The notes under the pieces were generated by a model that worked only from the letters and a program-made list of their open reading frames with translations, was not told where the DNA came from and ran no database searches. The translations under genes and the position numbers were made by a program. This document shows, piece by piece, positions 1 through 61,369 of a stretch of DNA of 61,369 nucleotides (positions are counted from its first letter, which is position 1; each line of letters starts with the position of its first letter). The DNA comes from a virus. The stretch is from positions 1 through 61,369 of the IMG/VR virus record IMGVR_UViG_3300045912_000939. One strand, written 5' to 3'.

Positions 1-1773
1 ATGAAAGACCTGCCCATCGACGACGAGGTCATCAGCATTAGCCGCACGGCGCTCGACACGCGCGCTCCGGTCGACGAACGGTACGACGCTACCGCGCAAG
101 TCGCCAAGACGGTCGCGCCGGCGGTGCCGCGCTTCGACCGCTCGATGATCGTCAAGGCCGCCGTCGACGCGCACCGGCTCACCGAGCGCCTAAACCGCCA
201 GTCGCTGCCCGGCCGCCCCAAGAGCGGTAACCCGGACGTCTACGGCATCTTCAAGTACCACGATTACCTCAGGCGCCCGGCACCGATGGGCTTTACCGAA
301 CTGCGCGCCATCTTGCAACACAACCCCGTGACCAGCAGCATCATGTTCACCTTCAGCCGCTGGGTGTCGCGCATGGCCAAGCCGGTGCAGGAGGACTACG
401 AGTCCGGCTTCCGCATCAAGCTCCGCGGCCCCCGTAGGCGCCTCAGCGAGGGCGAGCGCCAGCGCGTCGAGTGGCTCGAGCGCTTCGTCATGAACTGTGG
501 CGCGGAGTTCGACCCCTTCAAGCGCGAACTGCTCGAGCGCGACGACCTCATCGGCTACCTAAAGAAATCCACGCTCGACACGCTGGCGCTGGACGCCATG
601 CCGACCGAGATCATCCGCACCCCAAGCGGCCGCATTCACGGCTGGGCGCACGTGGACGGCGCCACCGTGTACCTGGCGCCCAAGGAAGGGCTCGAGCCGG
701 ACGCTGTGCCGCCCCCGAATGCCGACCCCGAGCGCCTGCCCGATCCCGAGTGGGTCAAGGCCGTGGAGGCGACCGGCGACGGCACCACCGTGACGCAGTG
801 GTTTGGTTACGACGAGATCCTGTATCGGCCGCGCAACCCACGCCCAGACGTGTACGGCGAGGGCTACGGCATCAGCGAGTCCGAGCTGATCATGCGCGTC
901 ATCACCGGCTTCATCAACCTGCTCAACTACAACCAGAAAGCCTACGAGGACAACCACATCCCGCAGGGCTTTTTGCAGCTCTGGGGCGACTTCAAGCAAG
1001 ACGACGTCGAGGACTTCAAGGCCGAGTGGGCCGCGATGGTGGCGGGCGTGTCGAACGCCTGGCGCTTGCCGCTCCTCGTCTCCGAGAAGGGCAAGGAGGC
1101 CGGCGCCAACTTCATCAAGACCGGCGTCGAAGTAACCGAGATGCACTTCATCAAGGGGACGCTCATGTACGTAGGGCTCGAGTGCGCCATGCGCGGCATC
1201 GACCCCGAGGAGATCAATTTCGAGTCGTTCTCATCGAAAACCTCGAGCCTCTCCGACGGCTCTATCGAGGCGAAGCTGATCAACTCGAAAAACAAGGGCT
1301 TCTACCCGCTACTCCAACACCACGAGGCGTACCTCAACCAGATCCTGCAGGCCGTCGACCCGGACGCCTACCTCGAGTGGACGGGTTTCATCAGCGCCAA
1401 GGACGCTTGGGAGCGCGACGCGAAGGCGCTGACCTTCGGCGAGCTGCGCGAACGCCAAGGGCTGCCGCTTAGCGGCATCGAGCTGCTCGACAGCGCCCCC
1501 ATCGACCCCACCATGCAGAGCGTCTACCTGCAGGCCATGGGGCAACAGATGCAAGGCTTCGCCGGTGAGTCCTTAGAGGGCATGCCGCCGGAGCTGCAGC
1601 AACAGCTCGCCCAAGGCGGCTGGCCGCCCGCAAACGAAGAAGGCGAAGAAGGCGAGGTGGCCGAGCAAGACGCGGACGACCAGGAGAGCGACAACGAAGC
1701 CGAGGACGCGGACGGCCCGACGGGCTCCTTCCAGAAGCTGCGCGACGCGCTGCTCCTCGACGGCCACGAATAG
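1..1773 (+). CDS. Phage portal protein
   Basis: This 590-residue protein should form the dodecameric portal at one capsid vertex, through which DNA is packaged and ejected and to which the neck binds. The central part (residues 90-480) has the mixed alpha/beta look of portal proteins, with a conserved-looking stretch ending in GYGISESELIMRV and a long helical stem region. The last 60 residues are very acidic and Gln/Glu/Asp-rich, as in many portals. Base 1 is the A of the ATG, so an upstream start cannot be excluded. The minor head gene follows 7 bases after the stop. Assignment as portal is from overall sequence character and gene order. Confidence 0.85.
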   Translation: MKDLPIDDEVISISRTALDTRAPVDERYDATAQVAKTVAPAVPRFDRSMIVKAAVDAHRLTERLNRQSLPGRPKSGNPDVYGIFKYHDYLRRPAPMGFTELRAILQHNPVTSSIMFTFSRWVSRMAKPVQEDYESGFRIKLRGPRRRLSEGERQRVEWLERFVMNCGAEFDPFKRELLERDDLIGYLKKSTLDTLALDAMPTEIIRTPSGRIHGWAHVDGATVYLAPKEGLEPDAVPPPNADPERLPDPEWVKAVEATGDGTTVTQWFGYDEILYRPRNPRPDVYGEGYGISESELIMRVITGFINLLNYNQKAYEDNHIPQGFLQLWGDFKQDDVEDFKAEWAAMVAGVSNAWRLPLLVSEKGKEAGANFIKTGVEVTEMHFIKGTLMYVGLECAMRGIDPEEINFESFSSKTSSLSDGSIEAKLINSKNKGFYPLLQHHEAYLNQILQAVDPDAYLEWTGFISAKDAWERDAKALTFGELRERQGLPLSGIELLDSAPIDPTMQSVYLQAMGQQMQGFAGESLEGMPPELQQQLAQGGWPPANEEGEEGEVAEQDADDQESDNEAEDADGPTGSFQKLRDALLLDGHE

Positions 1774-1780
1774 GGCCCAC

Positions 1781-2821
1781 GTGTCGTTCGAGCGCAACAT
1801 CTGGGCCGACGACCTCGACCCCGCCAAAGCCGCCCTTGAACGCGCCTGGACGGCGCTGGGCCGTGACTACCTCTACGCGCTGCATCTGGAGACGCATCGG
1901 CTGCTCGAGCTTCCCCCACTGCCGCGCGCTAGCGTCGAGGCGGTGTACCAGATGTCGGTGGGTGGCGTGATCGCCAAGGCCGACGACGCCCCCATCGAAC
2001 GAGCGCTACGCTATTCCAACGCGCTCAGGCGCTTTCGCGAACTGAGGCGCGCAGGGCGGGTACCTGCAGAGCACGCGCGACACCTCGCCGCGATCCTCGC
2101 CGACAAGTGGTACGGCGAATACCGCCTGCATACGCGCGCGCAGGCTAGGGCCGTCCGCACCTGGTTGGCGGGGTTCCTGCGCGCCAAGACGCGCGCCCCG
2201 CGCCCCGCCACGCCGCCCGTCACCTGGCAGGAAGCCAAGGCGGTGTACAGGCTCGACGACACGCTCGCCAACAGCATCCAGTGGGCGCAAGCGCACGCCG
2301 CCGAGCACGTGACCAGCCTCAAGGAGCGCGCCCGCCATGCGCTGGCGGAAACACTGCTTGCCGCCCAAGCCGAAGGCACCACCCAACCCCTGACCGTCGC
2401 CAGCAACCTGCTGACCAAAATGGGCACCCTGAATCGCGATTGGCGCACCATCGCCATCACGGAGCAGGCGATGAACCACGCGCACGGAGAACTGGCAGGA
2501 CTGATCGGGCAGAAGGTCGAGTGGATCGCCGCTGCCGACGCATGCCCGCACTGCAAGCAGTTTGCTGGGCAAATCTTCGAGGTGGTCAGCCCGGACGCGC
2601 CCCACAAGGACTTTTGGCGGCACGTGTGGGCCGGCAAGAGCAACGTGGGCCGCAGCTTCGCGCCGCGCACCAGGGACGGGCGCACCCGCACGCGCGAGGA
2701 GCTGGCCGGGCCGGCGATCCCCGCACATCCCTCGTGTCGCTGCCGTTGGCGTCGGGTGCTGCAAAAACCCGCAGCCGATCCGAGGTTGCTGGCGTATCTC
2801 CGCACCACCATGGCCCCCTGA
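1781..2821 (+). CDS. Minor head / head morphogenesis protein (SPP1 gp7 / Mu F-like)
   Basis: A 346-residue protein with a GTG start just behind the portal. The N-terminal two thirds is helical; the C-terminal part carries the gp7/Mu F signature: a CPHC cysteine pair near residue 250, then a Gly/Arg-rich stretch, then HPSCRCRWR near residue 317. Family members are minor capsid proteins bound to the portal and sometimes ejected with DNA. The position directly after the portal is the usual one. The stop is TGA followed by CCCC. Confidence 0.85.
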   Translation: MSFERNIWADDLDPAKAALERAWTALGRDYLYALHLETHRLLELPPLPRASVEAVYQMSVGGVIAKADDAPIERALRYSNALRRFRELRRAGRVPAEHARHLAAILADKWYGEYRLHTRAQARAVRTWLAGFLRAKTRAPRPATPPVTWQEAKAVYRLDDTLANSIQWAQAHAAEHVTSLKERARHALAETLLAAQAEGTTQPLTVASNLLTKMGTLNRDWRTIAITEQAMNHAHGELAGLIGQKVEWIAAADACPHCKQFAGQIFEVVSPDAPHKDFWRHVWAGKSNVGRSFAPRTRDGRTRTREELAGPAIPAHPSCRCRWRRVLQKPAADPRLLAYLRTTMAP

Positions 2822-2839
2822 CCCCACCTCGAAGACGCC

Positions 2840-3767
2840 ATGCGCGCGGACGTGCTGCGCGACCTCGCGAGCGAAGCGCTCAAGATCAAGCACCGCCCAC
2901 TTCTGGATCGACGAGCGCGATACCCCTACCGCCTCGGACGGGTCGCTCGAGCTGCGCACCGACCCTGGCGGCATAGCGCTACAGCCGGGCGAGCGCTTCT
3001 TGCTCAACACGCCAGGCGACCTCACCTTGTTCGCGAAGTTCCATCCAGACGGGGTAGACAGCAGTCACAGCTTGCCGTTTCCAGCAGTCTTGCGGCGCGT
3101 CAGCGACCCGAGCTTGCCATACGGCTACACATTCCGGTACGTGCCCGCAGAGCAGCACGAATATGCCGTCAAGGCGACCGCCCTACCCGGCCTGTGCCTC
3201 TTTACCCGCAAGCCGCTGCCGAGACTGCTCGTGGCCAAAGCCTACAAGCTCGAGGGCCGCTGCAAGTGGCACGGGCTCGACATCTCCATCGAGAACGGCA
3301 AAGGGAGCGTCAGGCGCGGCGTAGATCCCGACGGGCACGCCTGGTCGACGCGCATGCTGTACCCTTACGGTTACCTCAGAAACACCCAGGGGACCGACGG
3401 CGACCACCTCGACTGCTACGTCGGCCCCGACGAGGACGCCGCCAAGGTCTACATCGTGCATCAAGTCGATCCCACCACCGGCGGGTTCGACGAGGACAAG
3501 GTGATGCTCGGCTTCCCCAGCGCCGACGCCGCCAAGCGCGCCTATCTGGCGCACTACGACACGCCCAAGTTCTTCGGCGGCATGACCGAGATGCACGCTG
3601 CGGAGTTCGCCCAGCTCGTCAAAAGCGGTAAACTGACGGGCAAGGTCGTCATGGGCGAGCCGCGCGCTCGAGCTGGCAAGGCGGAGCTGAAGCGCCTGCT
3701 CGAGGTCGCCAAGCGCCAGCGCACCGTTACGGGTGGGCTGAGCTACTACGTCAAGAGGTCACAATGA
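2840..3767 (+). CDS. Phage pyrophosphatase-domain protein, apparently frameshifted near 2891
   Basis: The reading frame from 2882 to the stop at 3767 encodes a convincing protein. Its core (about 3250-3650) looks like the inorganic-pyrophosphatase-like domain found in phage head operons: YPYGYLRNTQGTDGDHLDCYVGP followed by a VYIVHQVD strand and a helical DAAKRAYLAHYD segment. That frame has no ATG, GTG or TTG near its beginning. The only good start is ATG 2840, whose frame reads MRADVLRDLASEALKIK and then turns into an Arg-rich shadow. Skipping one base at about 2891 joins the two. This may be a one-base sequencing or assembly error, a real mutation or programmed +1 frameshifting. The stop overlaps the next ATG (ATGA). 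Confidence 0.7.
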
Positions 3768-4913: not shown

Positions 4914-4940
4914 GGTGGCGCTGGTGGCGCTGGTGGCGCT
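4914..4940. repeat. Three tandem copies of a 9-base unit (GGTGGCGCT)
   Basis: Three perfect head-to-tail copies of GGTGGCGCT lie between the start of the secreted gene and the stop codon of the HTH gene. The last base of the third copy is the first base of the HTH stop codon. Such a repeat can vary in copy number by slippage. Confidence 0.9.
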
Positions 4941-5185
4941 CAGTCTGTTTCGTCGATGAACTCGAGCAGGTCATCAAATGTGACTTTTTTGCCTGTTATT
5001 GCCATCAGACCATCCATCACCGCAGCAAGTGTGCTAAACCGAACCCCTTCAGTCTCGTCATTGGCGAGTCGGTAAATTACTTTTTGCGACACCCCTTTTG
5101 CTTCTTTTGCAAGCGAATACGGGGTCACGTCATGCTCTCTTAGAAATTCTTTCAACTTCCATCGAATAACGCCCACGCCGGGCAT
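4940..5185 (-). CDS. XRE-family HTH regulator
   Basis: About 81 residues from ATG 5185 (MPGVGVIRWKLKEFL). A longer version from 5224 is possible, but the first 13 residues look non-coding. The helix-turn-helix reads PYSLAKEAKGVSQKVIYRLA, then a C-terminal helical region ends in VTFDDLLEFIDETD. This layout is common in small Cro/CI-like repressors. It is divergent from the 5350 operon, whose promoter has a perfect 12-base palindrome just upstream, so it probably controls that promoter and its own. Confidence 0.85.
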   Translation of the reverse strand: MPGVGVIRWKLKEFLREHDVTPYSLAKEAKGVSQKVIYRLANDETEGVRFSTLAAVMDGLMAITGKKVTFDDLLEFIDETD

Positions 5186-5244
5186 TGTATCATCGCGAAC
5201 TCCGCTCGAAGACCCTGCTTCCATGGCAAGACTATAGCATATTC

Positions 5245-5256
5245 AGGGTTAACCCT
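5245..5256. promoter_or_regulatory. Palindromic operator AGGGTTAACCCT
   Basis: A perfect 12-base palindrome lies two bases before the -35 box of the promoter at 5259-5287 and between the divergent HTH gene and the 5350 operon. This is the expected site for the dimeric HTH protein encoded at 4940-5185. The binding partner is inferred from position only. Confidence 0.6.
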
Positions 5257-5258
5257 AT

Positions 5259-5287
5259 TTGACTATTGCCCGCAAAGGGGGTATATT
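5259..5287 (+). promoter_or_regulatory. Sigma-70-type promoter for the 5350 operon
   Basis: TTGACT at 5259-5264 and TATATT at 5282-5287 are separated by exactly 17 bases. Transcription would begin near 5294. That leaves a leader of about 55 bases with AAGGAGG eight bases before ATG 5350. Confidence 0.8.
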
Positions 5288-5349
5288 GATCATCAGAGCG
5301 GCGCATCCACCAAGACAAACCGCTCTGAAATCCCATAAGGAGGATCACC

Positions 5350-5613
5350 ATGCATCCTACCACCCGCCACCGCGGCCGAGTCCTTGCCGGCGTGCTGAAC
5401 GTCGATAGCGTCGAGCCGTGGGCGCTGCCGGCGCTGCTCGAGCTCGTCCACCGCAAGGCCGACAAGGCCGGGATCGACGTCGGCGTGGTCGTCGCCACCG
5501 TGTGCATCGGCATCGAGTGGCGCGAGGGCGAGGGCAGCCTCGAAACCTTCACCGAGGCCCTGCGCGACCAGCACGTCAGCTTCACCTTCAAGGAGAAGGC
5601 GTTCGATGAGTGA
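5350..5613 (+). CDS. Hypothetical early protein
   Basis: An 87-residue protein with an excellent ribosome binding site (AAGGAGGATCACC before the ATG). It has a Gly/Val-rich core (GIDVGVVVATVCIGIEW) flanked by charged helices. It is first in the rightward early-type operon, and its stop overlaps the start of the DUF3102 gene. Family not recognised. Confidence 0.75.
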   Translation: MHPTTRHRGRVLAGVLNVDSVEPWALPALLELVHRKADKAGIDVGVVVATVCIGIEWREGEGSLETFTEALRDQHVSFTFKEKAFDE

Positions 5614-6598
5614 ACTGCAAACGGCGACGTTCAGCTACGACCGGCTCGATCCTGAAACCCGCATCGTGGTGCAGCAGCGCACGAGCGAGATCCTGACCAT
5701 CATGCGCCGCACCGCCCAGGACGTCATCGACCTGGGCGGGAAACTCCTCGACGTCAAGAACCGCCTCGATCATGGCCAATTCGGGGAGTGGTTGCGAGCG
5801 GAGTTCGGGTGGAGCGAGGACACCGCACTCAGGTTTATGCAAACATACAAGGCTTTTTACCAAAAACCGCACATTGCGGAATTTGCCCCCTCCGCCCTCT
5901 ACGCCCTCTCGGCCCCCTCGACCCCCGAGGAGGCCCGCCAAGAAGCCCTGAAGCGCGCTGAATCCGGCGAGAAGATCACCCATCGGGCAGCCAAGGAGAT
6001 CGTCGCCAAGCACAAGCCCGAGCCCGAGAAGCTCGAGCGGCTCGTCGAGAACTACCTGTCCATCTGGTGCCGCAGCCCGCAGGAGAAAGTGGATCGGCTC
6101 GAGGCGATCCTGAGCGGCGGCGCGGAGAACAAGTGGAACGAGCTGTCCAACTACGTCCGCAACGTCATGCCGGTGTCGAGCGAGCGGCTGCTCGAGGCCG
6201 TTCGTATGGCGAAAGCGCGGTGGGAGGCGCCCGCACGGACGCCCGCCGTCGCGCCCGAATCCGCTCGCTCTGCCAAGCCCCAAGAGGCGGAGCCGGGCAC
6301 GCGCGCGACTCCTGCCGAACCCACGCACCCCGCACCCACGCCACAACCTCCCACGCTGCAGGGCACCCCTCCATCCGTCACCCTTAGGGGCAAGGAGACC
6401 GCCACTTCGCTTCGCTCGAGTGCAGGCGCCGAGGTGCACGACCTGCTGCAGGCGCTCTACGACCTGGGCGTGGACGAACTTGCCGAGGCGCTGCGCGGCA
6501 AGGCGAACGAGGACGGCAGCTTGGCCAAACTGTACGACATCGTGGCCGCCATGCTCAGGCGGGCAAGGGAGCGGGTGAATCGTGGAATCGGCGCTTGA
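5606..6598 (+). CDS. DUF3102-type phage protein
   Basis: A 330-residue protein. Residues 25-110 match the DUF3102 pattern seen in phage and plasmid proteins: a helical region with IDLGGKLLDVKNRLDHGQF and GEWLRAEFGWSEDTALRFM. A Pro/Thr-rich linker (about 215-255) and a short C-terminal helical domain follow. The family is thought to bind DNA or act in early phage regulation; function is not established. It overlaps both neighbours, which supports one operon. Confidence 0.8.
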   Translation: MSELQTATFSYDRLDPETRIVVQQRTSEILTIMRRTAQDVIDLGGKLLDVKNRLDHGQFGEWLRAEFGWSEDTALRFMQTYKAFYQKPHIAEFAPSALYALSAPSTPEEARQEALKRAESGEKITHRAAKEIVAKHKPEPEKLERLVENYLSIWCRSPQEKVDRLEAILSGGAENKWNELSNYVRNVMPVSSERLLEAVRMAKARWEAPARTPAVAPESARSAKPQEAEPGTRATPAEPTHPAPTPQPPTLQGTPPSVTLRGKETATSLRSSAGAEVHDLLQALYDLGVDELAEALRGKANEDGSLAKLYDIVAAMLRRARERVNRGIGA

Positions 6599-7562
6599 AC
6601 TCAGCAGCACCCCGCAGCTGTCGGCCTTCCGCTTCCGCAACGCCGAAATCCGCGCGGTCGGCGAAGGCGAACGGGTGTGGTTCGTCGCCAAGGATGTGTG
6701 CAAGGCGCTTGAGATATCCTGGAGCGGCAGGACTCTGGACTCCATCAAGGACGAATGGAAAGGGATGATGGATTTCATCACCCCTCGAGGAACGCAGTCC
6801 CTCACCGTCATCTCCGAGCCGGCGGTGTACAAGCTCGCCTTCCGCAGCCGCAAGCCGGAAGCGGAGGCCTTCACCGACTGGGTCGCCTCCGAGGTGCTGC
6901 CCGCTCTCCGCAGGACCGGCATTTACAGCATGCGGCAGCCAGTAGCGCTCGAGCCCTTGATCGAGTCCATGCTCGAGCAAGAGGAGCGGCTGAGAGCGAT
7001 GGAGGTATGGCGCGAGAACGCCCCCGTCTCGGTCGATGCTCCGAAGGTCGCTCGCCTGCGCCTCATGATCCAGGCGTACGGACGGGCGCTCGGTGGTGGC
7101 CGTTCGGGTTACGCTCGAGCCTACCGCCGTTTCTACGACCGCTTCGGCTTGGCGAAGTACGACCACCTGCCGCTCCACCGCTACCATGAAGCCGTGGAAG
7201 TGTTAGGGGCATGGCATCGTGAGGCGAGCCGGCAGTTGGTGGCTGCAACGGCGGATGACCACACGAGCACGGCCGAGACCGACGAAGGGCGCGCTCGTCG
7301 GCTCGGCCGGTACGTCAAGGCCCGGCGCCTGTACCTGGGGATCAAGCGGCCCGAGTTTTGCTCGGAGCTGCAACGACTTGGGAAGCGGCTGACCGAAGAC
7401 CACCTGGCGAAACTTGAAGGAGGCCACCGGAGCCTCGCTCGAGCCTCCTTCGAGTTGCGCGAGGCCATCCGCACCATCCTCAAGATCGACCCGCAGACTT
7501 GGTATTGCGACACAGGACTCTACGTAACGAACGAAAAAGGAAGTGGAGGACGCACACCATGA
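6582..7562 (+). CDS. BRO-N antirepressor fused to a repressor-like DNA-binding domain
   Basis: A 326-residue protein with a GTG start. Residues 12-116 are a BRO N-terminal domain (RVWFVAKDVCKALE, then SEPAVYKLAFRSRKPEAEAF and VLPALRRTG), typical of phage antirepressors. Residues 120-230 are a linker with helical character. Residues 236-314 are close to residues 10-88 of this phage's own repressor at 59253: by eye 54 of 79 positions are identical, including DHLAKLEGGHR and REAIRTILKIDP. The antirepressor therefore carries a copy of the repressor's HTH domain. It could occupy the operators itself or form mixed complexes with the repressor; both are inference. Confidence 0.88.
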   Translation: MESALELSSTPQLSAFRFRNAEIRAVGEGERVWFVAKDVCKALEISWSGRTLDSIKDEWKGMMDFITPRGTQSLTVISEPAVYKLAFRSRKPEAEAFTDWVASEVLPALRRTGIYSMRQPVALEPLIESMLEQEERLRAMEVWRENAPVSVDAPKVARLRLMIQAYGRALGGGRSGYARAYRRFYDRFGLAKYDHLPLHRYHEAVEVLGAWHREASRQLVAATADDHTSTAETDEGRARRLGRYVKARRLYLGIKRPEFCSELQRLGKRLTEDHLAKLEGGHRSLARASFELREAIRTILKIDPQTWYCDTGLYVTNEKGSGGRTP

Positions 7563-7991: not shown

Positions 7992-8007
7992 CTTTGCTCT
8001 AAGATTG
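7992..8007 (+). promoter_or_regulatory. Predicted early operator (CTTTGCTCTAAGATTG)
   Basis: This site lies about 10 bases before the ATG of the ParB-like gene at 8016. It shares TTTGCTCTAA with the site in front of the Cro-like gene at 59073 and the TTGCTC core with sites near 51853-51882 and 59166-59207. It is a probable target of the repressor or of the antirepressor's repressor-like domain. Confidence 0.5.
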
Positions 8008-8015
8008 GACTAGAC

Positions 8016-8801
8016 ATGGCCAATGGTGAGACGCAAGCTCCACTCTTTACTCCAGTCACGCCCGTACCTATGACTGTCAAACTGGCCGAGGTCGAGCCGT
8101 GGAAGAGCACGGCTCGCAACCTCGTCAAGAAGTCGGTGGCGCTGCTCGGCTTTACGAGCACGCCACTGCTGCAGGAGACCGGAGCCACGCCGTATAAATA
8201 TCGCGTCGTCGCGGGTAGGCGCCGCCTCGACGCGGCAGCCGCCGCCGGGCTCGAGTGCGTGACGGCACTCGTGATCGGCGCCGACGTTACCGAGGCCGAT
8301 GTGCGCGCGCTCGGCGCCATGTCGAACCTGGCTCGCAGCTCGAGCCCCGTCGACGAGGCGTTCGACTTGCACAGGCTGGTCGAGCTTGGCCACACACCCG
8401 CCGACCTCGCCAAGCTCTTCGGCATCTCCAAAGCAGTGATCGAGAAGCGCCTCAAGCTGGCAAGCCTTCCCGATGCGCTGCTCGAGGCGGTCAGGCGCGG
8501 CGACATGGCGCCAGGCGTCGCGGCCGACGTCGCCAATCTGACGCTCGAACAGCAGGAGCAGCTGATTCAGCGCCTTGAGACGCAAGACCGGATCACCGGC
8601 GCCGACGTAAAGGCCGTTCGACTGGCGCAGAAGGAAGCAGCCGTCAAGGCGCTGCCCGAGTCGCTCTTTGGACCCATCCCCGAACTCACGCCCAGCGAGC
8701 GCTTCAAGCACGCGGCACGCCAGGCCCTCGCCGAGGGCGTGACAACCCAGGAACTCGCGAGATTGCTCGAGGAGGCTACGAAAAGCGAGGTGACGACGTG
8801 A
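8016..8801 (+). CDS. ParB-like protein (first copy)
   Basis: A 261-residue protein with the ParB N-terminal fold: residues 20-90 include ATPYKYRVVAGRRRLDAAAAAGL. A KorB/ParB-type helix-turn-helix follows (TPADLAKLFGISKAVIEKRL, about 128-147). No ParA is present, so plasmid-like partition is unlikely to be complete. Phage ParB-like proteins often act as DNA-binding regulators or nucleases. It has its own upstream operator-like site at 7992. Confidence 0.85.
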   Translation: MANGETQAPLFTPVTPVPMTVKLAEVEPWKSTARNLVKKSVALLGFTSTPLLQETGATPYKYRVVAGRRRLDAAAAAGLECVTALVIGADVTEADVRALGAMSNLARSSSPVDEAFDLHRLVELGHTPADLAKLFGISKAVIEKRLKLASLPDALLEAVRRGDMAPGVAADVANLTLEQQEQLIQRLETQDRITGADVKAVRLAQKEAAVKALPESLFGPIPELTPSERFKHAARQALAEGVTTQELARLLEEATKSEVTT

Positions 8802-10010: not shown

Positions 10011-10430
10011 TCAGTCCGTAGGACTGTTCTGAGACTGCAAGTAGCGTTTTATGACCTCGATAGGCGCGCCACCTGTTGAGAGGATGCAGTAGGAACCCGA
10101 CCACAGCACAGGCTTGGAGTAGAACCGCGCTAGGTGCTCGCGGTGGTCCCGCCTTAGAAGGCGACTCGTCACGGTCTTGAGGTTGTTGACGAACTTGGCT
10201 AGCTCCATGCTTGGGTGACCCTCGAAGAGGATGTGTACGTGGTCGGCCTCTCCCGAAAACTCCACTAGCTCTCCGCCCCAACGCTCGCAGAGCCTTGCAG
10301 CGATGCCTTTGAGGTCGCCCAGCATCGCCGCTGTCAAGGCTTTGCGACGGTACTTGCAAACCAGAACCAAGTGATAGCTGAGCCTGTAAACGCTGTGCGA
10401 GTGGGCTTTTAGGTTTGCTTTTGTAGCCAT
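10011..10430 (-). CDS. tnpA: IS200-type Y1 transposase TnpA
   Basis: A 139-residue protein, the normal length for TnpA. It has the HUH metal motif (EADHVHILF, about residue 60) and the catalytic tyrosine in IKRYLQSQ near the C-terminus. YHLVLVCKYRRKAL near the start is also typical. ATG 10430 is chosen because the homologous region begins immediately there. It cuts and rejoins single-stranded element ends as a dimer. Confidence 0.93.
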   Translation of the reverse strand: MATKANLKAHSHSVYRLSYHLVLVCKYRRKALTAAMLGDLKGIAARLCERWGGELVEFSGEADHVHILFEGHPSMELAKFVNNLKTVTSRLLRRDHREHLARFYSKPVLWSGSYCILSTGGAPIEVIKRYLQSQNSPTD

Positions 10431-10449
10431 AACCAAGTATACTAGAGAG

Positions 10450-11670
10450 GTGCTTGTGACGCGCAGAGTCGAGTTCAAGGTGTACCCCAACGCCGCCCAA
10501 CGTGAGCAGCTTGAGGTGTGGACGGTGTTGCACGCTCGGCTCTACAACGCCTGTTTGGAGCAGCGCATCACGCACTATCGTCAGCACAAGGGCTCGGTAA
10601 GCTACTACGACCAGCAGAACGAGTTGCCCGCCCTTAAAGCCGAGTTTCCCGAGTACACCCCCTTGGGCTCGCACGCCCTCCAAGAGACGGTGAGGCGAGT
10701 GGACAGGGCGTTTCAGGCGTTCTTCCGGCGCGTCAAAGCTGGCCAAACGCCGGGATTCCCCCGCTTCAAATCGGCGCGGCGCTTTAAGGGCTTCACCTAC
10801 CCCGACCCCGCCGGGTGGAAGTTCGCCCTTGGACAGAACGGCAAGCACGGGGCGCTCTCTATCTCCAACCTCGGCACCCTCAAACTGAGAGGCAAGCCGC
10901 GTCAGTGGGGCAAGCCGACCACCTTGACGCTGACCCGTAAGAGCACGGGGGAGTGGTTTGCGTCCATCACGGTGCGGTGCATCCCCAAGCGCGAAGCAGG
11001 ACCGCACGCGGTCGGCGTGGACTTGGGGTGCGAGACGGCTATCAGCCTTTCGGACGGCGGCACTATCGAGAACCCGCGCCACCTCAAGGAGTCGCTGCAA
11101 AAGCTCAAGGTGCTGCAAAGGAGGATGGCGAAGCGCAAGCGGGGCGGCGCTAACCGAGAGAAGGCGCGTCTTGCCGTTGCCAAGCTGTACGCCAAGGTAG
11201 CGAATCAACGCAAACACTTTCAGCACTTTGAGACGGCGAAGCTCGTCCAGACCTACGGGCTCATCGCTACCGAAACGCTTCAAGTCAAGAACATGACCGC
11301 CAAGGGCGGTGCGTACAAAAAGGGCCTTAACCGCTCCATTCTGGATGTGGGCATGGCGACCATTAAGCAGATGCTCAGCTACAAAGTCGAAGAAACTGGT
11401 GGCTATGGGCGACTGGTAGAGGTCCCGACCCGCAAGGTTAAACCCTCACAGACGTGTCCCGCGTGTGGTCATCAACATAAGAAGCTCCTTTCGGAGCGCA
11501 CACACGTCTGTGAGCAGTGCGGATACACCGCGCCGCGTGACGTGGCGGCTGCCCAAGTCATGCTTGCTTGGGCGCTTAACGAGTTGGGAACCGACTCGCT
11601 GGCGAGTCCCTGTAGTTTGGGGATGACGACCCAGGAAACTACCCCCATAGCCGTCAGGCTTGGGGCGTAG
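10450..11670 (+). CDS. tnpB: TnpB RNA-guided nuclease
   Basis: A 406-residue protein with a GTG start. The three RuvC segments are present: VGVDLGCE (Asp), IATETLQVKN (Glu) and APRDVAAAQ (Asp). A zinc ribbon (CPACGH and CEQCGY) lies between the last two. Characterised relatives such as the ISDra2 protein are guide-RNA-directed DNA nucleases that help the element persist; the guide comes from the element's right end. All catalytic acidic residues appear intact, so the protein is probably active. Confidence 0.93.
   Translation: MLVTRRVEFKVYPNAAQREQLEVWTVLHARLYNACLEQRITHYRQHKGSVSYYDQQNELPALKAEFPEYTPLGSHALQETVRRVDRAFQAFFRRVKAGQTPGFPRFKSARRFKGFTYPDPAGWKFALGQNGKHGALSISNLGTLKLRGKPRQWGKPTTLTLTRKSTGEWFASITVRCIPKREAGPHAVGVDLGCETAISLSDGGTIENPRHLKESLQKLKVLQRRMAKRKRGGANREKARLAVAKLYAKVANQRKHFQHFETAKLVQTYGLIATETLQVKNMTAKGGAYKKGLNRSILDVGMATIKQMLSYKVEETGGYGRLVEVPTRKVKPSQTCPACGHQHKKLLSERTHVCEQCGYTAPRDVAAAQVMLAWALNELGTDSLASPCSLGMTTQETTPIAVRLGA
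11612..11670 (+). ncRNA. Candidate right-end (omega RNA) structure of the IS element
   Basis: The 3' end of tnpB contains GTAGTTT pairing with AAACTAC (11612-11642) with an inner GGG/CCC, followed by CCCCC and GGGG that can pair. In related elements the guide RNA overlaps the tnpB 3' end and the right-end hairpin, with the guide read from the flanking DNA. Here that would be the bases from about 11675, inside the helicase remnant. No transcript evidence. Confidence 0.4.
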
Positions 11671-12044
11671 TAGTTCATAAGCGCCGGATGTTCCACCCGG
11701 ACCAGGGCGGGCCGGAGGTCGACATCCTGGTGATGTCCGACGCCGGCGCCGTCGGGATGAACCTGCAACGCGGCCGCTGGCTGGTCAACTATGACGTGCC
11801 CCTGACTTACAAGACCCTCGCGCAGCGCAACGCCCGTATCGACCGCATCGGCCAACGGCACGATGTCGAGGTGCACAACCTCGTCACCGACAGCAAGTTC
11901 GACAAGGATGCGGTGCGGCGCGTGCAGCGCAAGGGATTGCTGCAAGACATCTTCGAGAGCGACTGGGAGTCGATGGACGACAGCGGCCTGGCCAAGTCCA
12001 TCGCGCTGGCTCGATCCGCGCGCAACGAGCTGCTGGCGGCGTAG
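11671..12044 (+). pseudogene. Remnant of a SNF2-type helicase (C-terminal part only)
   Basis: About 120 residues that match the last part of phage SNF2-like helicases: motif V (ILVMSDAGAVGMNLQRG) and motif VI (QRNARIDRIGQRH), then a short helical tail ending LLAA. Everything upstream, including Walker A and DEAH boxes, is absent; the frame opens at the tnpB stop codon. No corresponding N-terminal half exists left of the element. The gene was therefore truncated by deletion rather than simply split. Confidence 0.85.
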
Positions 12045-46693: not shown

Positions 46694-46859
46694 CGTCCAA
46701 CCGTTCCAGCTTCCGTGGCACGACGATGACATCGACGACGGTACCCGCGGCATCCGCAATCTCGATGGCTACCAGGCCGCCGCTGTTGGTCTGCTCCGGT
46801 TGACGGGTCCGTACTTTACACAGCCGGACCGGAACGCTCAGGAGCGGTTCGTCACTCAT
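46674..46859 (-). CDS. Small hypothetical protein downstream of terminase
   Basis: Sixty-one residues from ATG 46859 (MSDEPLLSVPVRLCKVRTRQ), overlapping the terminase stop. Strand-rich (GGLVAIEIADAAGTVVDVIV). It converges on and overlaps the 46253 gene by 20 bases. Function unknown. Confidence 0.55.
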   Translation of the reverse strand: MSDEPLLSVPVRLCKVRTRQPEQTNSGGLVAIEIADAAGTVVDVIVVPRKLERLDVNKAER

Positions 46860-48960
46860 GGCCATGGCTTTCGTCGGCCTTACGGTAGTGCCGGCAGTTC
46901 GTCATCCCCGGCGAGGTGCGTACGGGCGGTTTGGGGGCGCCCAGCTCGAACGCGACGCGCGGGTTGTGGCACCAGCCCAGGCCGCCGCCCAGGTTGGGCT
47001 GGAAGTGCTTGCAGCTGGCGCAGGCTCGCTTGAAAGGCGCCGATAAATTGCGGGGGCGCAGATGCTTGGGGAGTTGCGCCGCATAGTCGCCGGTGATGGG
47101 CTGCTTGGGGCTTGCGTCCTTGCGCGCGCCGGTGATGGTGGTCGTGCCCATGCGCCGCATCAGGCCGGCGATGGCGTAGGCGTAGGCGTGGGCGAAGTGC
47201 GGTTCGACCGCCAGGTGCTTGAACAAATATCGGTAGCGGCCGGTGCGGATCGGCTCGCGCGTCTGCCGATCGGTCTCGACGATCTCGATGCTGGTCTTGG
47301 CGATGTTCTCGAGATGCTCGCGCAGCTCCGCGGCGAGCGGCGTGGGGGTGCGCTGGCCGCGCTTGAAGATCTCTTGTACGCGCCGCTCGAAGGCATCGGC
47401 CGGAATGACGGCGCGGTGGTACTTGAAGAGGTTGAAGGCCTGCAGCAGGTGCTTGTAGCGGTCGATCTTGACGATGTACTCGTACTTCGCCTCGGCCGCA
47501 CTCTTGCGAATCTTCTCGTCGTCGGCCTGGTCGCTCCACTTGAGCGGTTGATCCATCTCCTCGTCGTACTCCGCCAGCCAGATGACGCCGTGCGGGAACG
47601 CCCGTCCGAAGCCGCTCGAGAAGCTGTAGTCCGGCATGCGGTCCACCACGCCGATGTCGACCTGCCACTGTCGGGCGATGTCGATGCAGCGCTCCAACAC
47701 CGCCCGCTCCGGGTCGCGGGCGCTGCGGTAGTCCGCGCCCATGACCACCTCGAGGTGGCACAGGTACACGCGCCCGCCGGGGCCAAGCCGCCAGACGGTG
47801 ACGTGCTTCTCCTCGGGCCGCTGGTCGATGCCGATGGCCGTGTACCAGCCTTCAGGGTGCGGGCCGGGCTCGGGCCAGCGGTAGGACGGCTCGAGCTTCA
47901 TGGCGGCGTTGAACACCTCGGCGGTGACGATGACGGCGTTCGGGTCGCGGTGGGGGCGAGCGAGGAAGCTGTTGTAGAACTCGCTGGGGTTCTGCCCTTC
48001 GACGACCATCCGCTGGTAGGCTTGCCACATTTCAGGGAGGTAGCTGGGACCCTTGAGGATCTTGCTGAAGGTGTAGCCGTCCCAGTAGGCGTCGGCGGGG
48101 CCGAGCCGCACATAAGCGCCGCGCTGGGTGTCCGGGATCTCGGTGCCGCACTTGGGGCAGATGTAACGCAGGTTGGCCGGGTCGCGGGTGTCGACGCAGT
48201 CCGGCCAGGCCTCTTCCATGATGAAGCCCTTGTGGTGCTTGCAGCGGACGTTCGGGCAGAAGACATGCCAGTAGTGCTGGCTGGACTGCTGGAAGTAGTA
48301 GTCGATGTCCATGCCGGGGAAGCCGGCGGTCGAGTTGAGGTCGATGATGCCGGGCGGGCCGTCGTCGTCCCAGTAGCGCGATTCGGAGACGCGCAAAAAG
48401 GCACGCTCGATCATGGCAACGGACATCAAGCGGCATTCGTCGAACAGCAGCGCGTCGAGCGGCACTGAATCGACCGCCGTGCCCGCGCGCATGCCGCGAA
48501 AGCGCATGTTCGAGTGGCCGATCCTCACGACCTCGACGGCGTCCACCCCGCCCACGCCGACTAGCCGCATCATGCGGGCGCTCGAGCGCATCATCGGCCT
48601 AAAGCGGGTCTTGTGCAGATCCAGCACGTCCTTCTCGGTAGGGAAGAAGAAGCCGACGTTGCAACGCTTGAAGATGTCGGCCGTGAGATAGGCGCCCTTG
48701 TAAAGCATTTCGACGGTGAGGCCGAGCTGAGCGGCTTTACGCTTGACCGAGCGGCGCTTGAGTGTGTCGCGGGTCTGGTCGTAAAGGGGGAGTGCGTAAG
48801 CGCGACCTTCGAGACTGAAAGGCTGGCCGCCGTCACCTTCGGGCTTCATGCCCGACGCGACGCACCAGGTGGCGAAGTGGCGCAGCTCTTCGGAGGTGAA
48901 CTCGGGCTTGGTAGGCTCGAGCGTCTCGGCGAAGGCGTGAGCCAACTCCTGGACGAACAT
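46852..48960 (-). CDS. terL: Terminase large subunit
   Basis: A 702-residue protein from ATG 48960, overlapping the small-subunit stop (TAATG). Residues 35-260 are the packaging ATPase: a degenerate Walker A region (KRKAAQLGLTVEML) and a clear Walker B (LDALLFDECR). A zinc-ribbon insertion follows (YICPKCGTEI). Residues about 320-560 are the RNase H-like nuclease (AIGIDQRPEEKHVTVW). The last 60 residues contain a CASCKHF and WCHNP cysteine cluster, not usual for the family. The layout resembles the GpA type. Confidence 0.9.
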   Translation of the reverse strand: MFVQELAHAFAETLEPTKPEFTSEELRHFATWCVASGMKPEGDGGQPFSLEGRAYALPLYDQTRDTLKRRSVKRKAAQLGLTVEMLYKGAYLTADIFKRCNVGFFFPTEKDVLDLHKTRFRPMMRSSARMMRLVGVGGVDAVEVVRIGHSNMRFRGMRAGTAVDSVPLDALLFDECRLMSVAMIERAFLRVSESRYWDDDGPPGIIDLNSTAGFPGMDIDYYFQQSSQHYWHVFCPNVRCKHHKGFIMEEAWPDCVDTRDPANLRYICPKCGTEIPDTQRGAYVRLGPADAYWDGYTFSKILKGPSYLPEMWQAYQRMVVEGQNPSEFYNSFLARPHRDPNAVIVTAEVFNAAMKLEPSYRWPEPGPHPEGWYTAIGIDQRPEEKHVTVWRLGPGGRVYLCHLEVVMGADYRSARDPERAVLERCIDIARQWQVDIGVVDRMPDYSFSSGFGRAFPHGVIWLAEYDEEMDQPLKWSDQADDEKIRKSAAEAKYEYIVKIDRYKHLLQAFNLFKYHRAVIPADAFERRVQEIFKRGQRTPTPLAAELREHLENIAKTSIEIVETDRQTREPIRTGRYRYLFKHLAVEPHFAHAYAYAIAGLMRRMGTTTITGARKDASPKQPITGDYAAQLPKHLRPRNLSAPFKRACASCKHFQPNLGGGLGWCHNPRVAFELGAPKPPVRTSPGMTNCRHYRKADESHGHE

Positions 48961-49655
48961 TAGGCATCGAGGGCTTTGGGGGCGCCCAGTGGCCCTAGCA
49001 CCTCGCGCTTGATCCGCTCGAGCACGGCCTCGTACTGCTCGCGGGGGAGGCTCTCCAGGAGCACGACCTTCAGCGCTTTCGTCCACTCGATAAACTGCTC
49101 GAGCGCTTTCGCCTGGGCGGTCTTGGCGACGATGTCGGCGCGCATCTTGGCGATGCGCACCACGTCCTTGTTGAGTTCGGCAAGGGCCTGCAGGTAGCTT
49201 GAGAGATTGCTGTAGAGCCGGGCGGCCTGCATGAGCTCCACTGGGTCGGGGTACTGGCCGTCGTCGATGGCGCGCCTAAGCGCGTCGCGCAGCTCGTTGG
49301 CGTCGGGTTGGAGAGAGAGGGCGTTCTGCAACAGGACGCGCGCCAAGGTGATCTCGCGGTCGGTGTTGTCGAGGTCTCGTTCGAGCTCGAGCGCCTGCTC
49401 GAGCATCTCTTGCACCATGCCCGCGCGGCGCACGCTGTAGATCCCGGTAATGGGTGGTCGGCCCGCGGGCTTGGCGCGCCCCTCGCGTTCGCGCTTCGCC
49501 GAGCCTGGGCCGTGCATCCAGCACTTGGTAAACCCCGTGCGCGCGATGCCGTTGCACTGTTCGCCGTTGCGCTTGACCGCCTGACAGCGCGGTCGTCCGT
49601 CGGAGCGCTTGGGCTCGAGCGAACGCTTGGGTACCTTGGGCTTCTTTTGACGCAT
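48960..49655 (-). CDS. terS: Terminase small subunit (HGGAP-type)
   Basis: A 231-residue protein. The first 70 residues have CQAVKRNGEQCNGIARTGF and KCWMHGPGSAKREREG, the HGGAP pattern of phage small terminase proteins, with cysteines and a histidine that could bind zinc. A long helical region follows, fitting the oligomerisation core. It lies directly before the large subunit in an overlapping pair. It recognises the packaging start site. Confidence 0.85.
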   Translation of the reverse strand: MRQKKPKVPKRSLEPKRSDGRPRCQAVKRNGEQCNGIARTGFTKCWMHGPGSAKREREGRAKPAGRPPITGIYSVRRAGMVQEMLEQALELERDLDNTDREITLARVLLQNALSLQPDANELRDALRRAIDDGQYPDPVELMQAARLYSNLSSYLQALAELNKDVVRIAKMRADIVAKTAQAKALEQFIEWTKALKVVLLESLPREQYEAVLERIKREVLGPLGAPKALDA

Positions 49656-49663
49656 GGGTTTCC

Positions 49664-49855
49664 TCAGTCCTCTCCCATGGCCAAGGTGTTAGCGCAAGGC
49701 GTCGCCTCTTGCGGCGAGTCGACGATGGCATAGTGCTGATCGCAGCGAGGGCAGGCGACGAGGGTCGCGCCAGCCTCGCCGCGCAGGGGTTGCCGGCAGA
49801 CGGCGCAGCGCACGCCGCTCTCTAGCTGTTCGGCGCTGAGTTCCAGCACAATCAT
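49664..49855 (-). CDS. Small zinc-ribbon protein
   Basis: Sixty-three residues from ATG 49855 (MIVLELSAEQLESGVRCAVC), with CAVC and CPRC cysteine pairs. It overlaps the Lar-like gene and ends nine bases before the small terminase gene. Probably a zinc-binding adaptor; function unknown. Confidence 0.65.
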   Translation of the reverse strand: MIVLELSAEQLESGVRCAVCRQPLRGEAGATLVACPRCDQHYAIVDSPQEATPCANTLAMGED

Positions 49856-51852: not shown

Positions 51853-51889
51853 TTGCTCCAAGATGGTGCCAACATTGCTCTAGATTGTA
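51853..51889 (-). promoter_or_regulatory. Promoter and operators of the second ParB-like gene
   Basis: On the minus strand TACAAT (51889-51884) is a good -10 box with no clear -35. Just downstream lie CTAGAGCAATG (complement of CATTGCTCTAG at 51873) and a second variant (TTGCTCCAAGATGG at 51853). They match the core TTGCTC found at the lysogeny switch, so this is a likely repressor target. Confidence 0.55.
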
Positions 51890-58469: not shown

Positions 58470-58853
58470 CTAGTTCCCCGAAGGGAACGGTTGGGTAAAC
58501 GCGGCGCCGATAGCGTCGTGACGCTCGGCGTCGTGGCGGTGCATCACGCGGCGCTTCCACGCGACCACGGAGTCCGGATCGATCAACCACGGGGACTTGG
58601 GTCTATCGGGGTTCTGGCGCACGGCATGAATCTCGCCGCTGGCGATGAGCGCACGCACCTGGTCGGCGGTGAAGCGGGGAGAGATGAACGCAGCGGCTTG
58701 TTCGGTGTCCCAGAAGAGGGTGCCGTGAGGCATCCCGCCGCGCAGCTCCTCGCGCACTTGCTCGCGAACGATGGACGCCACTTCGGCTTTTAGGTGCTCT
58801 AGGAGCGCCCCCAGGAGCTGCTCGAGCGGTGCCTTGCCGGCGTACTCAGCCAT
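58470..58853 (-). CDS. Helix-turn-helix DNA-binding protein (excisionase-like)
   Basis: A 127-residue protein. Residues 5-35 form a helix that may mediate oligomerisation. Residues 48-110 look like a MerR/Xis winged helix: TEQAAAFISPRFTADQVRAL then IHAVRQNP and LIDPDSVVAWKRR. It follows the Cro-like gene and overlaps it. Could be the excisionase or an early regulator. Confidence 0.7.
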   Translation of the reverse strand: MAEYAGKAPLEQLLGALLEHLKAEVASIVREQVREELRGGMPHGTLFWDTEQAAAFISPRFTADQVRALIASGEIHAVRQNPDRPKSPWLIDPDSVVAWKRRVMHRHDAERHDAIGAAFTQPFPSGN

Positions 58854-59073
58854 GGTCGTCCCCCTCCCGCGAGGTAGAATTGAGACTTAAAGAGTCATAA
58901 TCTAGGTCAAGGTAATGGCATAGAACTTTGATGGTCGCCACGCGAGTCGAGCGTGCGTCGTTGAGAAAGTCGCCAATCGTTCGCTTCGACAAGCCCGTCA
59001 CGCCCGCCAGTTTTCGTGCGGAGAGGTTGCGCTTGCGCATCGCGTCCCTCACTGCGTCTCGAATATCGACCAT
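58846..59073 (-). CDS. Cro-like HTH regulator
   Basis: Seventy-five residues with one XRE helix-turn-helix (SARKLAGVTGLSKRTIGDFL) and a short acidic tail. First gene of the leftward early operon, divergent from the repressor. It has a perfect promoter (TTGACA-17-TACACT) and the ATG lies five bases after the -10 box, so the mRNA is leaderless. Confidence 0.85.
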   Translation of the reverse strand: MVDIRDAVRDAMRKRNLSARKLAGVTGLSKRTIGDFLNDARSTRVATIKVLCHYLDLDYDSLSLNSTSREGDDHG

Positions 59074-59078
59074 GCCTT

Positions 59079-59107
59079 AGTGTAAAGGTGGGACGATATT
59101 GTGTCAA
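59079..59107 (-). promoter_or_regulatory. Leftward early promoter
   Basis: On the minus strand TTGACA (59107-59102), 17 bases, TACACT (59084-59079), five bases, ATG. A textbook sigma-70 promoter giving a leaderless mRNA; drives the Cro-like gene and the replication operon. Confidence 0.85.
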
Positions 59108-59112
59108 GGATT

Positions 59113-59207
59113 AGAGCAAAATATTAAGATGTCCACACCCAAGGCTTGTTCGCATTTCGGGTCAACATTGCTCCGCTTTGGGTCTATATGCTACCATCCG
59201 AGCAATG
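59113..59207. promoter_or_regulatory. Lysogeny operator region
   Basis: Contains AGAGCAAA at 59113-59120 (complement TTTGCTCT), next to the leftward -35 box, and a pair CATTGCTC (59166-59173) and GAGCAATG (59200-59207) that flank the probable rightward promoter in opposite orientation. The same core occurs at 7992 and 51853-51882. Confidence 0.6.
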
Positions 59208-59252
59208 ACCGTTGGCGAGGCATCAATGCGAGGGTCGGTAGGAGCTGCACCT

Positions 59253-59993
59253 ATGACCAAATCCAAAGCCGAGGAGCAGCGCGCCAAGAAGCTAGGCAAA
59301 TACGTGCAAGAGCGGCGCATGCAACTGGGCCTCAAACGCCCCGAGTTCATCGCTGAGATGGAGCGCCTCGGCGAAAGCATCACGGCCGATCACCTCGCGA
59401 AGCTCGAAGGAGGCCATCGCTACCTGCAAAACGCCGCCGTCAGCACGCGCGAGGCCATCCGCACCATTCTCAAGATCGATCCGGAAACCTGGTACAAGGA
59501 CACAGGGCTCTACGTCCCGACCGAAAGCAACGGAAGTAAGCCGGGCTTCCTCGAGCGGGTCGGCTACGAAGCGGACTTTAGCCTGGAGCTGCCAGCTTAC
59601 GGGTCTCTGGCCGCAGGCATCCACGGCTTCGAACATCAAGAGCACCCTGAGAGATTCATGCGCTTCGACCGCCGCGAGTTGCCTCAGGGCGTCAATCTGC
59701 GCAAGCTCTACGTCGTCAGGGTCAACGGCGACAGCATGTACCAGGAAAACATGCGTCGCCCCATCCCCGACGGCGCCTGGTTGGTGGTCGAAGCAGGCGC
59801 GGTACCGGCCGAGGGCAGCATCGTCGTGGCCTACATCCCTGAAAAGGAGATCGGTGTCGTCAAGGAGTACGCTAGAGTCGGCAACGACGTCGTGCTACGG
59901 AGCTTCAAGCGTGGCGGCCCCATGTTCTGGAGCAGCGAGTTCCCGGACATGCGCGTTCAGGGTGTCGTTCGCGCCGTGACCTACAAGGTGTAG
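59253..59993 (+). CDS. CI/LexA-type repressor with S24 peptidase domain
   Basis: A 246-residue protein from ATG 59253, chosen for GGAG eight bases upstream. Residues 10-90 are the DNA-binding domain (GKYVQERRMQLGLKRPEF, DHLAKLEGGHR). Residues 115-246 are the S24 domain with autocleavage site Ala121-Gly122 (GSLAAGIHG), Ser161 (NGDSMYQ) and Lys204 (GVVKEY). All residues for RecA-stimulated self-cleavage are present, so DNA damage should induce the prophage. Its DNA-binding domain is duplicated in the antirepressor at 6582. Confidence 0.93.
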   Translation: MTKSKAEEQRAKKLGKYVQERRMQLGLKRPEFIAEMERLGESITADHLAKLEGGHRYLQNAAVSTREAIRTILKIDPETWYKDTGLYVPTESNGSKPGFLERVGYEADFSLELPAYGSLAAGIHGFEHQEHPERFMRFDRRELPQGVNLRKLYVVRVNGDSMYQENMRRPIPDGAWLVVEAGAVPAEGSIVVAYIPEKEIGVVKEYARVGNDVVLRSFKRGGPMFWSSEFPDMRVQGVVRAVTYKV

Positions 59994-59995
59994 CA

Positions 59996-61369
59996 ATGCC
60001 TCGAGGACGGCGCACGCGCGGCCGGGCAGCAGGCGAGGGATCTATTCGCCGCCGCACCATCACGCGAAAAGACGGCAGCACCTACAAGCGTTACAGTGCC
60101 GTCATCACCATGGGCTGGATCGATGGCAAACAGAAGCAACGCGAGGGCCCTTTGCGCGCCACCGAAAAGGAGGCTCGCGACGACCTCAAGCAGATGCTCG
60201 AGGAGCGCGACGAGAGTGGCCTCAGCAATTATGCCACCATGACCCTCAGCCAGTATCTCGATTACTGGCTCGAGCAGCGCCAGCCGTACCTGGCCGAACG
60301 AAGCCACAGGAACTACCGGCTCGACAGCGAAAAGTACATCAAGCCTCGCATCGGCCACGTGCAAATGCGAGACCTGTCCCCAGTCGTGATTCAAGCGTGG
60401 CAGACCAAGCTCCTTAAGGACAAGACCCCGCACGTCGCCAAGCGCACGCGCGCTGCGCTCAGCGCGGCCCTCAGGCAAGCGGTGCATTGGCAGATCCTCA
60501 AGTACAACCTCATGGATGCAGTTCCGCCCGTCAAGCTCCCCGAGAAGAACCGCCGCCGCTGGACGTTGGCTGAGGTACGGCGCTTCTTGAAGGTCGCCGA
60601 GCCACACCCCCTGTACCCCCTCTTTTTGCTGACCCTGAACACCGGGTTGCGGATAGGGGAGGTTCGCGGACTCCGTTGGGGGGACATCGACGGCAACGTG
60701 ATGCGAGTCCGTCACCAGATTCAGGGTTACAGCGCAACCCCACGTTTCCTGGCACTGAAAACCAAAGGGAGCCGCCGCAACCTCACGTTACCTGCCGACG
60801 TTCTCTTCGCCCTTGCCCAACACCGCAAGCGGCAAGACGAGCGGCGGGCCTTAGCCGGCACGTTGTGGAGGGACTACGATTTGGTGTTCTGCACCGGCAT
60901 CGGCACGCCCCTTGGCCCGGACAAAATCTACGATGCTCTGGTCGAACTCATTCACCAGACCGTACGCGACGATCTCAACCAGATCATCAAGGACATAGCC
61001 GGCAAATCAAGCTTGACCTTACGGGATCTCGAGCGAACCTTCAAAGGCGTGTCCTCGCCAAAAGAGGAGACGGCTCGCAGTGCCGTGCATGCCCTCATCG
61101 ACATGGCGGCGGAGAAGCACGAGATCGACGCCGTGCGCCTTCATCAGCGTGTGGAGAACGCCGGCATTCGACGTATCCGCTTTCACGATTTGCGGCACAC
61201 AAACGCCAGCTTGCTGATCCGCATGACGGACGCCAAGACGGTATCCAAGCGCTTGGGCCACGCTGACTCCAGCATCACGCATCGAATCTACGTGCATGAG
61301 TTCGAAGATCAACTGGAAAAGTTCGCGCCTTCCATGGATGATCTCTTGGGCGGCAATGATGATCCCTAA
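59996..61369 (+). CDS. int: Tyrosine integrase with an insertion in the catalytic domain
   Basis: A 457-residue protein two bases after the repressor. Arm-binding and core-binding domains occupy residues 1-175. Catalytic residues: R219 (GLRIGEVRGLRW), K257, H397-x-x-R400 (HDLRHTNASLL), H422 (LGHADSS) and Y432. About 75 residues (312-388) are inserted between the strands preceding HDLRHT, a charged helical block not usual in phage integrases. It integrates and, with an excisionase, excises the phage. The window ends at its stop, so attP is not visible. Confidence 0.93.
   Translation: MPRGRRTRGRAAGEGSIRRRTITRKDGSTYKRYSAVITMGWIDGKQKQREGPLRATEKEARDDLKQMLEERDESGLSNYATMTLSQYLDYWLEQRQPYLAERSHRNYRLDSEKYIKPRIGHVQMRDLSPVVIQAWQTKLLKDKTPHVAKRTRAALSAALRQAVHWQILKYNLMDAVPPVKLPEKNRRRWTLAEVRRFLKVAEPHPLYPLFLLTLNTGLRIGEVRGLRWGDIDGNVMRVRHQIQGYSATPRFLALKTKGSRRNLTLPADVLFALAQHRKRQDERRALAGTLWRDYDLVFCTGIGTPLGPDKIYDALVELIHQTVRDDLNQIIKDIAGKSSLTLRDLERTFKGVSSPKEETARSAVHALIDMAAEKHEIDAVRLHQRVENAGIRRIRFHDLRHTNASLLIRMTDAKTVSKRLGHADSSITHRIYVHEFEDQLEKFAPSMDDLLGGNDDP

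Follow-up and report, generated by a model that had tools for sequence, protein, structure and literature searches.

The stretch of DNA analysed here, called the window below, is the whole of the IMG/VR virus record IMGVR_UViG_3300045912_000939 (61,369 nucleotides). Its left part carries an apparent operon, starting at 5350, made of an 87-aa ORF, a DUF3102 protein, a Bro-N antirepressor-like protein (hereafter the antirepressor), more ORFs and a ParB-like protein. The features of this region are the following.

4940-5224, minus strand: 94-aa Cro/C1-type (HTH_26) regulator, divergent from the antirepressor operon (Pfam, E = 4.4e-9)
5225-5349: divergent control region, with a sigma-70-like promoter and a palindrome
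5350-6598, plus strand: the two genes upstream of the antirepressor in the apparent operon, 87-aa ORF (5350-5613) and DUF3102 protein (5606-6598), with stop-to-start overlap
6582-7562, plus strand: Bro-N antirepressor-like protein, 326 aa, GTG start
6645-6902, plus strand: Bro-N domain, residues 22-107 (Pfam PF02498, E = 1.6e-20, 74 bits for a cut-off of 25.6)
7104-7223, plus strand: borderline ORF6C-like stretch, residues 175-214 (Pfam PF10552, 22.1 bits for a cut-off of 22.0)
7293-7529, plus strand: copy of the repressor N-terminal HTH domain, residues 238-316 (BLASTP; family profile E = 1e-29)

The Bro-N part of the antirepressor found its best matches in PHROG anti-repressor families (top E = 2.5e-39). 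The ORF6C match, whose score is barely at the cut-off, covers positions 68-107 of 114, and no ANT domain was matched by Pfam. The HTH part is net basic (18 K/R versus 9 D/E); as it is C-terminal, and as Pfam finds no S24 domain in the protein, the build is not that of an S24 (LexA/CI-type) repressor. In the control region, the promoter-like sequence lies at 5259-5287 (TTGACT-17-TATATT) and a 10-bp palindrome, GGGTTAACCC, found once in the record, at 5246-5255. An inverted repeat, whose arms TCAGAGCGG and CCGCTCTGA are 18 bases apart, was also seen by eye between this promoter and the gene at 5350 (5293-5328). Judging from this layout, in which the promoter of the operon faces away from the gene of a distinct 94-aa HTH regulator, the operon is probably silent in the lysogen, under a second control of its own in the manner of P22 immI. 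The layouts are similar but the kind of regulator differs: it is of the HTH_26 type here, while the immI regulators of P22, Mnt and Arc, are ribbon-helix-helix proteins.

The second region of interest, close to the right end of the window, contains the repressor gene.

58470-58853, minus strand: excisionase-like protein (phrog_2907, E = 1.2e-4)
58846-59073, minus strand: Cro-like HTH_3 protein, divergent from the repressor (Pfam)
59074-59252: immunity intergenic region, 179 bp, with three GAGCAA copies (59111-59119, 59166-59173 and 59200-59207)
59253-59993, plus strand: phage repressor, 246 aa from ATG, HTH N-terminal domain (NTD) and S24 peptidase domain
59277-59522, plus strand: N-terminal HTH domain of the repressor, residues 9-90 (BLASTP and family profile)
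59592-59906, plus strand: Peptidase_S24 domain of the repressor (Pfam, E = 8.9e-11)

With an N-terminal HTH followed by an S24 domain, the gene at 59253 has the build of an S24 (LexA/CI-type) repressor. Its product looks self-cleaving, since it displays an Ala-Gly pair (residues 121-122), a serine within GDSM (161) and a lysine within VKEY (204), like the self-cleaving LexA/CI repressors. It is a full-length relative, at 28% identity, of the LexA-like regulators of the Thermus phages phiMa and Cumys. The genes for the latter are located upstream of the integrase, with a second regulator gene divergent from them, and have been likened to lysis-lysogeny switches for phiMa and the Lalka phages (PMC11437467). 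The window shares this layout, i.e. repressor, then integrase, with the Cro-like gene divergent, and the relatives keep it too, with divergent HTH genes of 75-89 aa beside the repressor.

The phage is temperate and, by sequence comparison, related to Thermus phages and to Deinococcota prophages. Its major capsid protein shares 55-56% identity with those of Cumys and phiMa and 50-63% with those of prophages in three Deinococcota genomes, and many further genes are common. Both limits of the record coincide with gene limits, the first codon of the portal gene at position 1 and the last codon of the integrase gene at 61369; since these genes are neighbours in phiMa, the record resembles a provirus cut back to gene boundaries. 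A helicase gene, intact and 1617 aa long in Cumys, is reduced to its last 109 codons or so (11715-12041), its remainder being found nowhere else in the window, and an IS200/IS605 element (TnpA, TnpB) directly adjoins this remnant (10011-12044). The TerL gene and the neighbours of the helicase gene (window 1-3000 and 46852-49679) also stand in an order and orientation different from those of Cumys, which suggests an inversion or a large rearrangement. No homologue of the genes of the antirepressor cassette was seen in Cumys or phiMa, so this cassette looks accessory.

The preliminary description of this DNA, made by eye, had claimed that the C-terminal part of the antirepressor and the N-terminal part of the repressor are about two-thirds identical (54 of 79 residues), with a similarity that extends over the same domain border in both and a BRO domain without counterpart in the repressor. 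BLASTP aligned residues 229-326 of the antirepressor with residues 2-97 of the repressor (59/98 identical, i.e. 60%, 78% positives, 125 bits, E = 1e-38). The two-thirds estimate holds, with a recount of 53 identical residues out of 79 instead of 54; the match ends where the linker of the repressor begins, and neither the Bro-N nor the ORF6C part was matched in the repressor. The window contains these two copies and no third one.

The two copies are old. Over the 79 codons, nucleotide identity is 68% (70% at first, 85% at second and 49% at third positions). For 81 codons, dN was estimated at 0.27-0.28 and dS at 1.1-1.8, so that dN/dS is about 0.15-0.25. Synonymous sites close to saturation together with a low dN/dS indicate that the copies split long ago and that purifying selection has acted on both. 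Two other origins were discarded: a chimeric assembly, given that the copies differ at 32% of nucleotides, and a recent duplication, given that only 29 of the 53 identical residues have identical codons when 24 are expected under synonymous saturation.

Pfam recognised no HTH in either copy, a profile built from the two sequences gave nothing significant against solved structures, and single-sequence structure models were of poor quality (pLDDT 40 and 35). Direct searches of IMG/VR, GTDB genome contigs and phage records returned no close relative of the domain, nor did the two-sequence profile among 111 Deinococcota genomes; relatives were reached only through searches with the full-length repressor and a 13-sequence profile. 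That profile matched the P22 C2 repressor (E = 7e-4 and 1e-3), the 434 repressor (0.0097) and related HTH chains, and by these matches the shared domain is a Cro/C1-type HTH. The same profile detected the domain in 48 of the 111 Deinococcota genomes. The loci examined were those that it returned plus 20 odd places. Strong members, with E up to 1e-14, number about 34, phiMa and Cumys being counted in. In every one of them that was examined, the domain is N-terminal, and all but five have a recognised S24-type domain after it. Four of the five are two-domain proteins of similar build, in which the second domain was missed by the profile, and the last one (L161) is a stand-alone protein of 104 aa. 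Among the strong members examined, the domain is not the common stand-alone unit that would have told against the proposal of the preliminary description, i.e. duplication and fusion. Weaker profile matches include ordinary HTH proteins and one double-HTH protein of Deinococcota, 311 aa long, in which the repressor-NTD profile matched two HTH stretches (L159:762-1697, minus strand).

Among the family members examined, the antirepressor is alone in having the domain at its C-terminus and a Bro-N partner. Its copy is 63% identical to the repressor NTD, and no other family member exceeds 24% identity to that NTD, which makes it very probable that one copy arose from the other in this lineage. As the usual home of the family is the N-terminus of repressors, the direction was presumably from repressor to antirepressor. 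On these figures and on the otherwise N-terminal placement of the family, the duplication and fusion are well supported.

Conservation is not uniform along the domain. With helix regions assigned by analogy with the 434 repressor, identity is lowest in helices 1-2 (18 of 33 residues) and higher both in helix 3, the likely recognition helix (13 of 17), and in helices 4-5 (22 of 29). The likely recognition helix, TxDHLAKLEGGHR, shows a single change, from Ala to Glu, the core DHLAKLEGGHR being identical in both copies. The changed position aligns with Gln28 of the 434 repressor, a residue that contacts bases there; the specificity of the two copies may therefore be the same or slightly shifted, and an identical operator specificity is not assured.

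The three sites put forward earlier as possible targets of the two proteins have the word GAGCAA in common. Besides the copies of the immunity region, the motif is found at two places.

7994-8002, minus strand: one motif copy upstream of the ParB-like gene at 8016; the 10-mer TTAGAGCAAA is also in the immunity region
51853-51883, minus strand: two further motif copies beside the ParB-like gene (51861); the 11-mer CAACATTGCTC is also in the immunity region

For the 11-mer as for the 10-mer, a match of the same length was obtained in 1 of 300 shuffles. The 9-bp motif TTAGAGCAA, with one mismatch allowed, occurs in the whole record no more often than chance predicts (6 occurrences versus 5.9 expected), and it is non-palindromic. 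Comparison of the antirepressor control region with the motif and the immunity region gave nothing above chance (an 8-mer match, reached in 104 of 300 shuffles). The sites sharing the word are plausible candidate operators, though the motif could belong to another factor.

To see how Bro-N proteins are built elsewhere, we used 80 further IMG/VR loci and five earlier ones, which gave 91 Bro-N proteins, the window included. Bro-N was recognised in all 91, ANT (ANT/KilAC) in 33, ORF6C in 6 and various HTH models in a few; Pfam found a Cro/C1-type HTH in none, a weak negative since it also misses the domain of the window. Each Bro-N C-terminus was then compared with the other ORFs of its own contig, over 45 contigs that total 1.29 Mb and are mostly complete or almost complete, the window serving as positive control. 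Apart from this control, no Bro-N protein shared a domain with an S24/CI-type repressor in the 45 viral contigs. One case of sharing with another regulator was found in L056 (IMG/VR 2576861818_000004), whose contig also encodes a 70-aa excisionase-like protein, with which the C-terminal HTH_17 of the Bro-N protein shares 56% identity over 57 aa.

L056:9695-10777, plus strand: Bro-N + HTH_17 protein
L196:6504-6716, minus strand: excisionase-like partner on the contig of L056

In L005, the C-terminal 70 aa or so of the Bro-N protein are 48% identical to a non-Bro protein of the same contig that looks like a Rha-type regulator (L005:5965-6522 and L005:3704-4270, both plus strand). The few other matches were weak or did not involve regulators. 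The 111 Deinococcota genomes contain no Bro-N protein.

The function of Bro-N proteins is poorly understood. In the reading that we favour, a copy of the N-terminal Cro/C1-type HTH of the repressor was added, long ago, to the C-terminal end of a Bro-N/ORF6C antirepressor; for this step the homology, the architecture, the age and the purifying selection are shown. With Bro-N/ORF6C in place of the cleavable S24 part, the fusion has the DNA-reading head of the repressor without its RecA-sensitive part. The fusion would go to the same operators as the repressor, or to overlapping ones, and there either displace it or form unproductive mixed complexes on the DNA, Bro-N/ORF6C supplying oligomerisation or further contacts; the switch would be tipped toward lytic growth or, alternatively, the repressor's own promoter would be closed. 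That the fusion reaches the operators of the repressor and antagonises it there, insensitive to RecA-driven cleavage, is put forward tentatively, as a proposal that falls a little short of an even chance; operator sharing, contact with the repressor or mixed dimers, antagonism and the sign of the effect are all things that we infer. Several observations point that way: the homology of the domains, the nearly unchanged recognition helix, the constraint on both copies, the profile matches to P22 C2 and 434, the N-terminal place of the family in repressors of Deinococcota prophages and Thermus phages, the basic HTH part, the PHROG anti-repressor match and the divergent HTH_26 gene with its promoter and palindrome. 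To these can be added a precedent for antirepression of one HTH protein by another, the Mor protein of TP901-1, which binds the NTD of the CI repressor (PMC11149083). Against it count the Ala to Glu change, the non-palindromic motif, absent from the antirepressor control region, and the poor structure models. Moreover, a repressor that looks self-cleaving makes an antirepressor unnecessary for SOS induction, and the helicase remnant beside the IS200/IS605 element suggests that the prophage may be partly decayed and no longer fully active.

In lambda-type NTDs, helices 4-5 carry the dimer contact. Their high identity in the two copies would suit another mode of action, in which the C-terminal HTH pairs with the repressor NTD, either away from DNA or at half-sites, as a steric block, with no need for operator binding of its own. 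Mor, an HTH protein that blocks the CI-NTD and has no demonstrated high-affinity DNA binding, could be seen as a model for it (PMC11149083); Mor, however, is a single small HTH protein without Bro-N fusion, and a pure decoy would not need a recognition helix kept as well as helices 4-5. We regard this mode as unlikely. It is likewise unlikely that the fusion is an uncleavable operator binder which shuts down the repressor gene or certain early promoters, and so a regulator in itself, not an antagonist. The same DNA-reading head without S24 and the net basic HTH part would fit that role, and the recurrence of the candidate motif by both ParB-like genes would make a small regulon possible, but the phage already has a dedicated Cro-like gene divergent from the repressor (58846-59073) and Bro-N proteins are generally annotated as antirepressors. 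Domain shuffling without shared function, the copy now binding different sites with no link to the repressor, is improbable: Bro-N proteins do readily acquire C-terminal domains (PMC6145125), L056 (HTH_17) and L005 (non-Bro protein) show parallel sharing within a contig and the Ala to Glu change affects the likely recognition helix, but the core of that helix is identical in spite of nearly saturated synonymous sites, and a repressor NTD is a specific, not a generic, source domain.

The antirepressors known so far have mostly been described as proteins that bind the repressor itself. If operator-directed antagonism is what the fusion does, an antirepressor with the DNA-reading head of the repressor would represent a second route, through operator competition or mixed complexes, and one that RecA-driven cleavage would leave untouched. 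Consisting of two proteins and one 179-bp control region, the pair lends itself to simple tests. The parallel of L056 is a hint that Bro-N proteins may have copied the DNA-binding domain of another regulator of their genome more than once. A broader proposal, which we find rather doubtful, is that some of these antirepressors use operator mimicry, the DNA-binding domain of a regulator of their own phage carrying the Bro-N module to its sites; in the window the regulator copied would be the repressor and in L056, independently, an excisionase.

How does the antirepressor compare with known systems? Mor of TP901-1 and phi13 is a small single-domain HTH protein, without Bro-N fusion, whose gene shares a short switch region with cI, whereas the antirepressor is a multi-domain protein of 326 aa encoded about 8.7 kb from the repressor, even with the record ends joined. 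The Gifsy-type antirepressors (GfoA, GftA and FsoA) resemble it in that their genes lie outside the immunity region; they are small, no DNA binding was seen for GftA and, in the available part of the source, no domain shared with the repressor is reported (PMC3121763). The S24 repressors of Deinococcota prophages, phiMa and Cumys have an HTH of the same family; theirs is N-terminal and nearly always stands before an S24-type domain, unlike that of the antirepressor, which is C-terminal and without S24. The L056 protein is closer in build, with Bro-N and a C-terminal DNA-binding domain matching a regulator of its own contig, but its partner is an excisionase-like HTH_17 protein and not a lysogeny repressor. 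Combinatorial shuffling of Bro/KilA domains has been described (PMC6145125), Bro-N antirepressors were earlier suggested to act in complex with Xre-type regulators (PMC2701414), and a literature search of partial coverage found no report of an antirepressor bearing the repressor NTD of its own phage. With the Bro-N antirepressors of the P22 Ant type (PHROG 130, 2899 and 463), the protein of the window has in common the N-terminal Bro-N and perhaps, at a borderline score, an ORF6C-like middle; the usual ones end in ANT/KilAC or ORF6C, while this one adds a copy of its own phage's repressor NTD. Bro-N antirepressors and their domain shuffling are thus already known, and the fusion with the phage's own repressor NTD is, within the literature searched, what is new.
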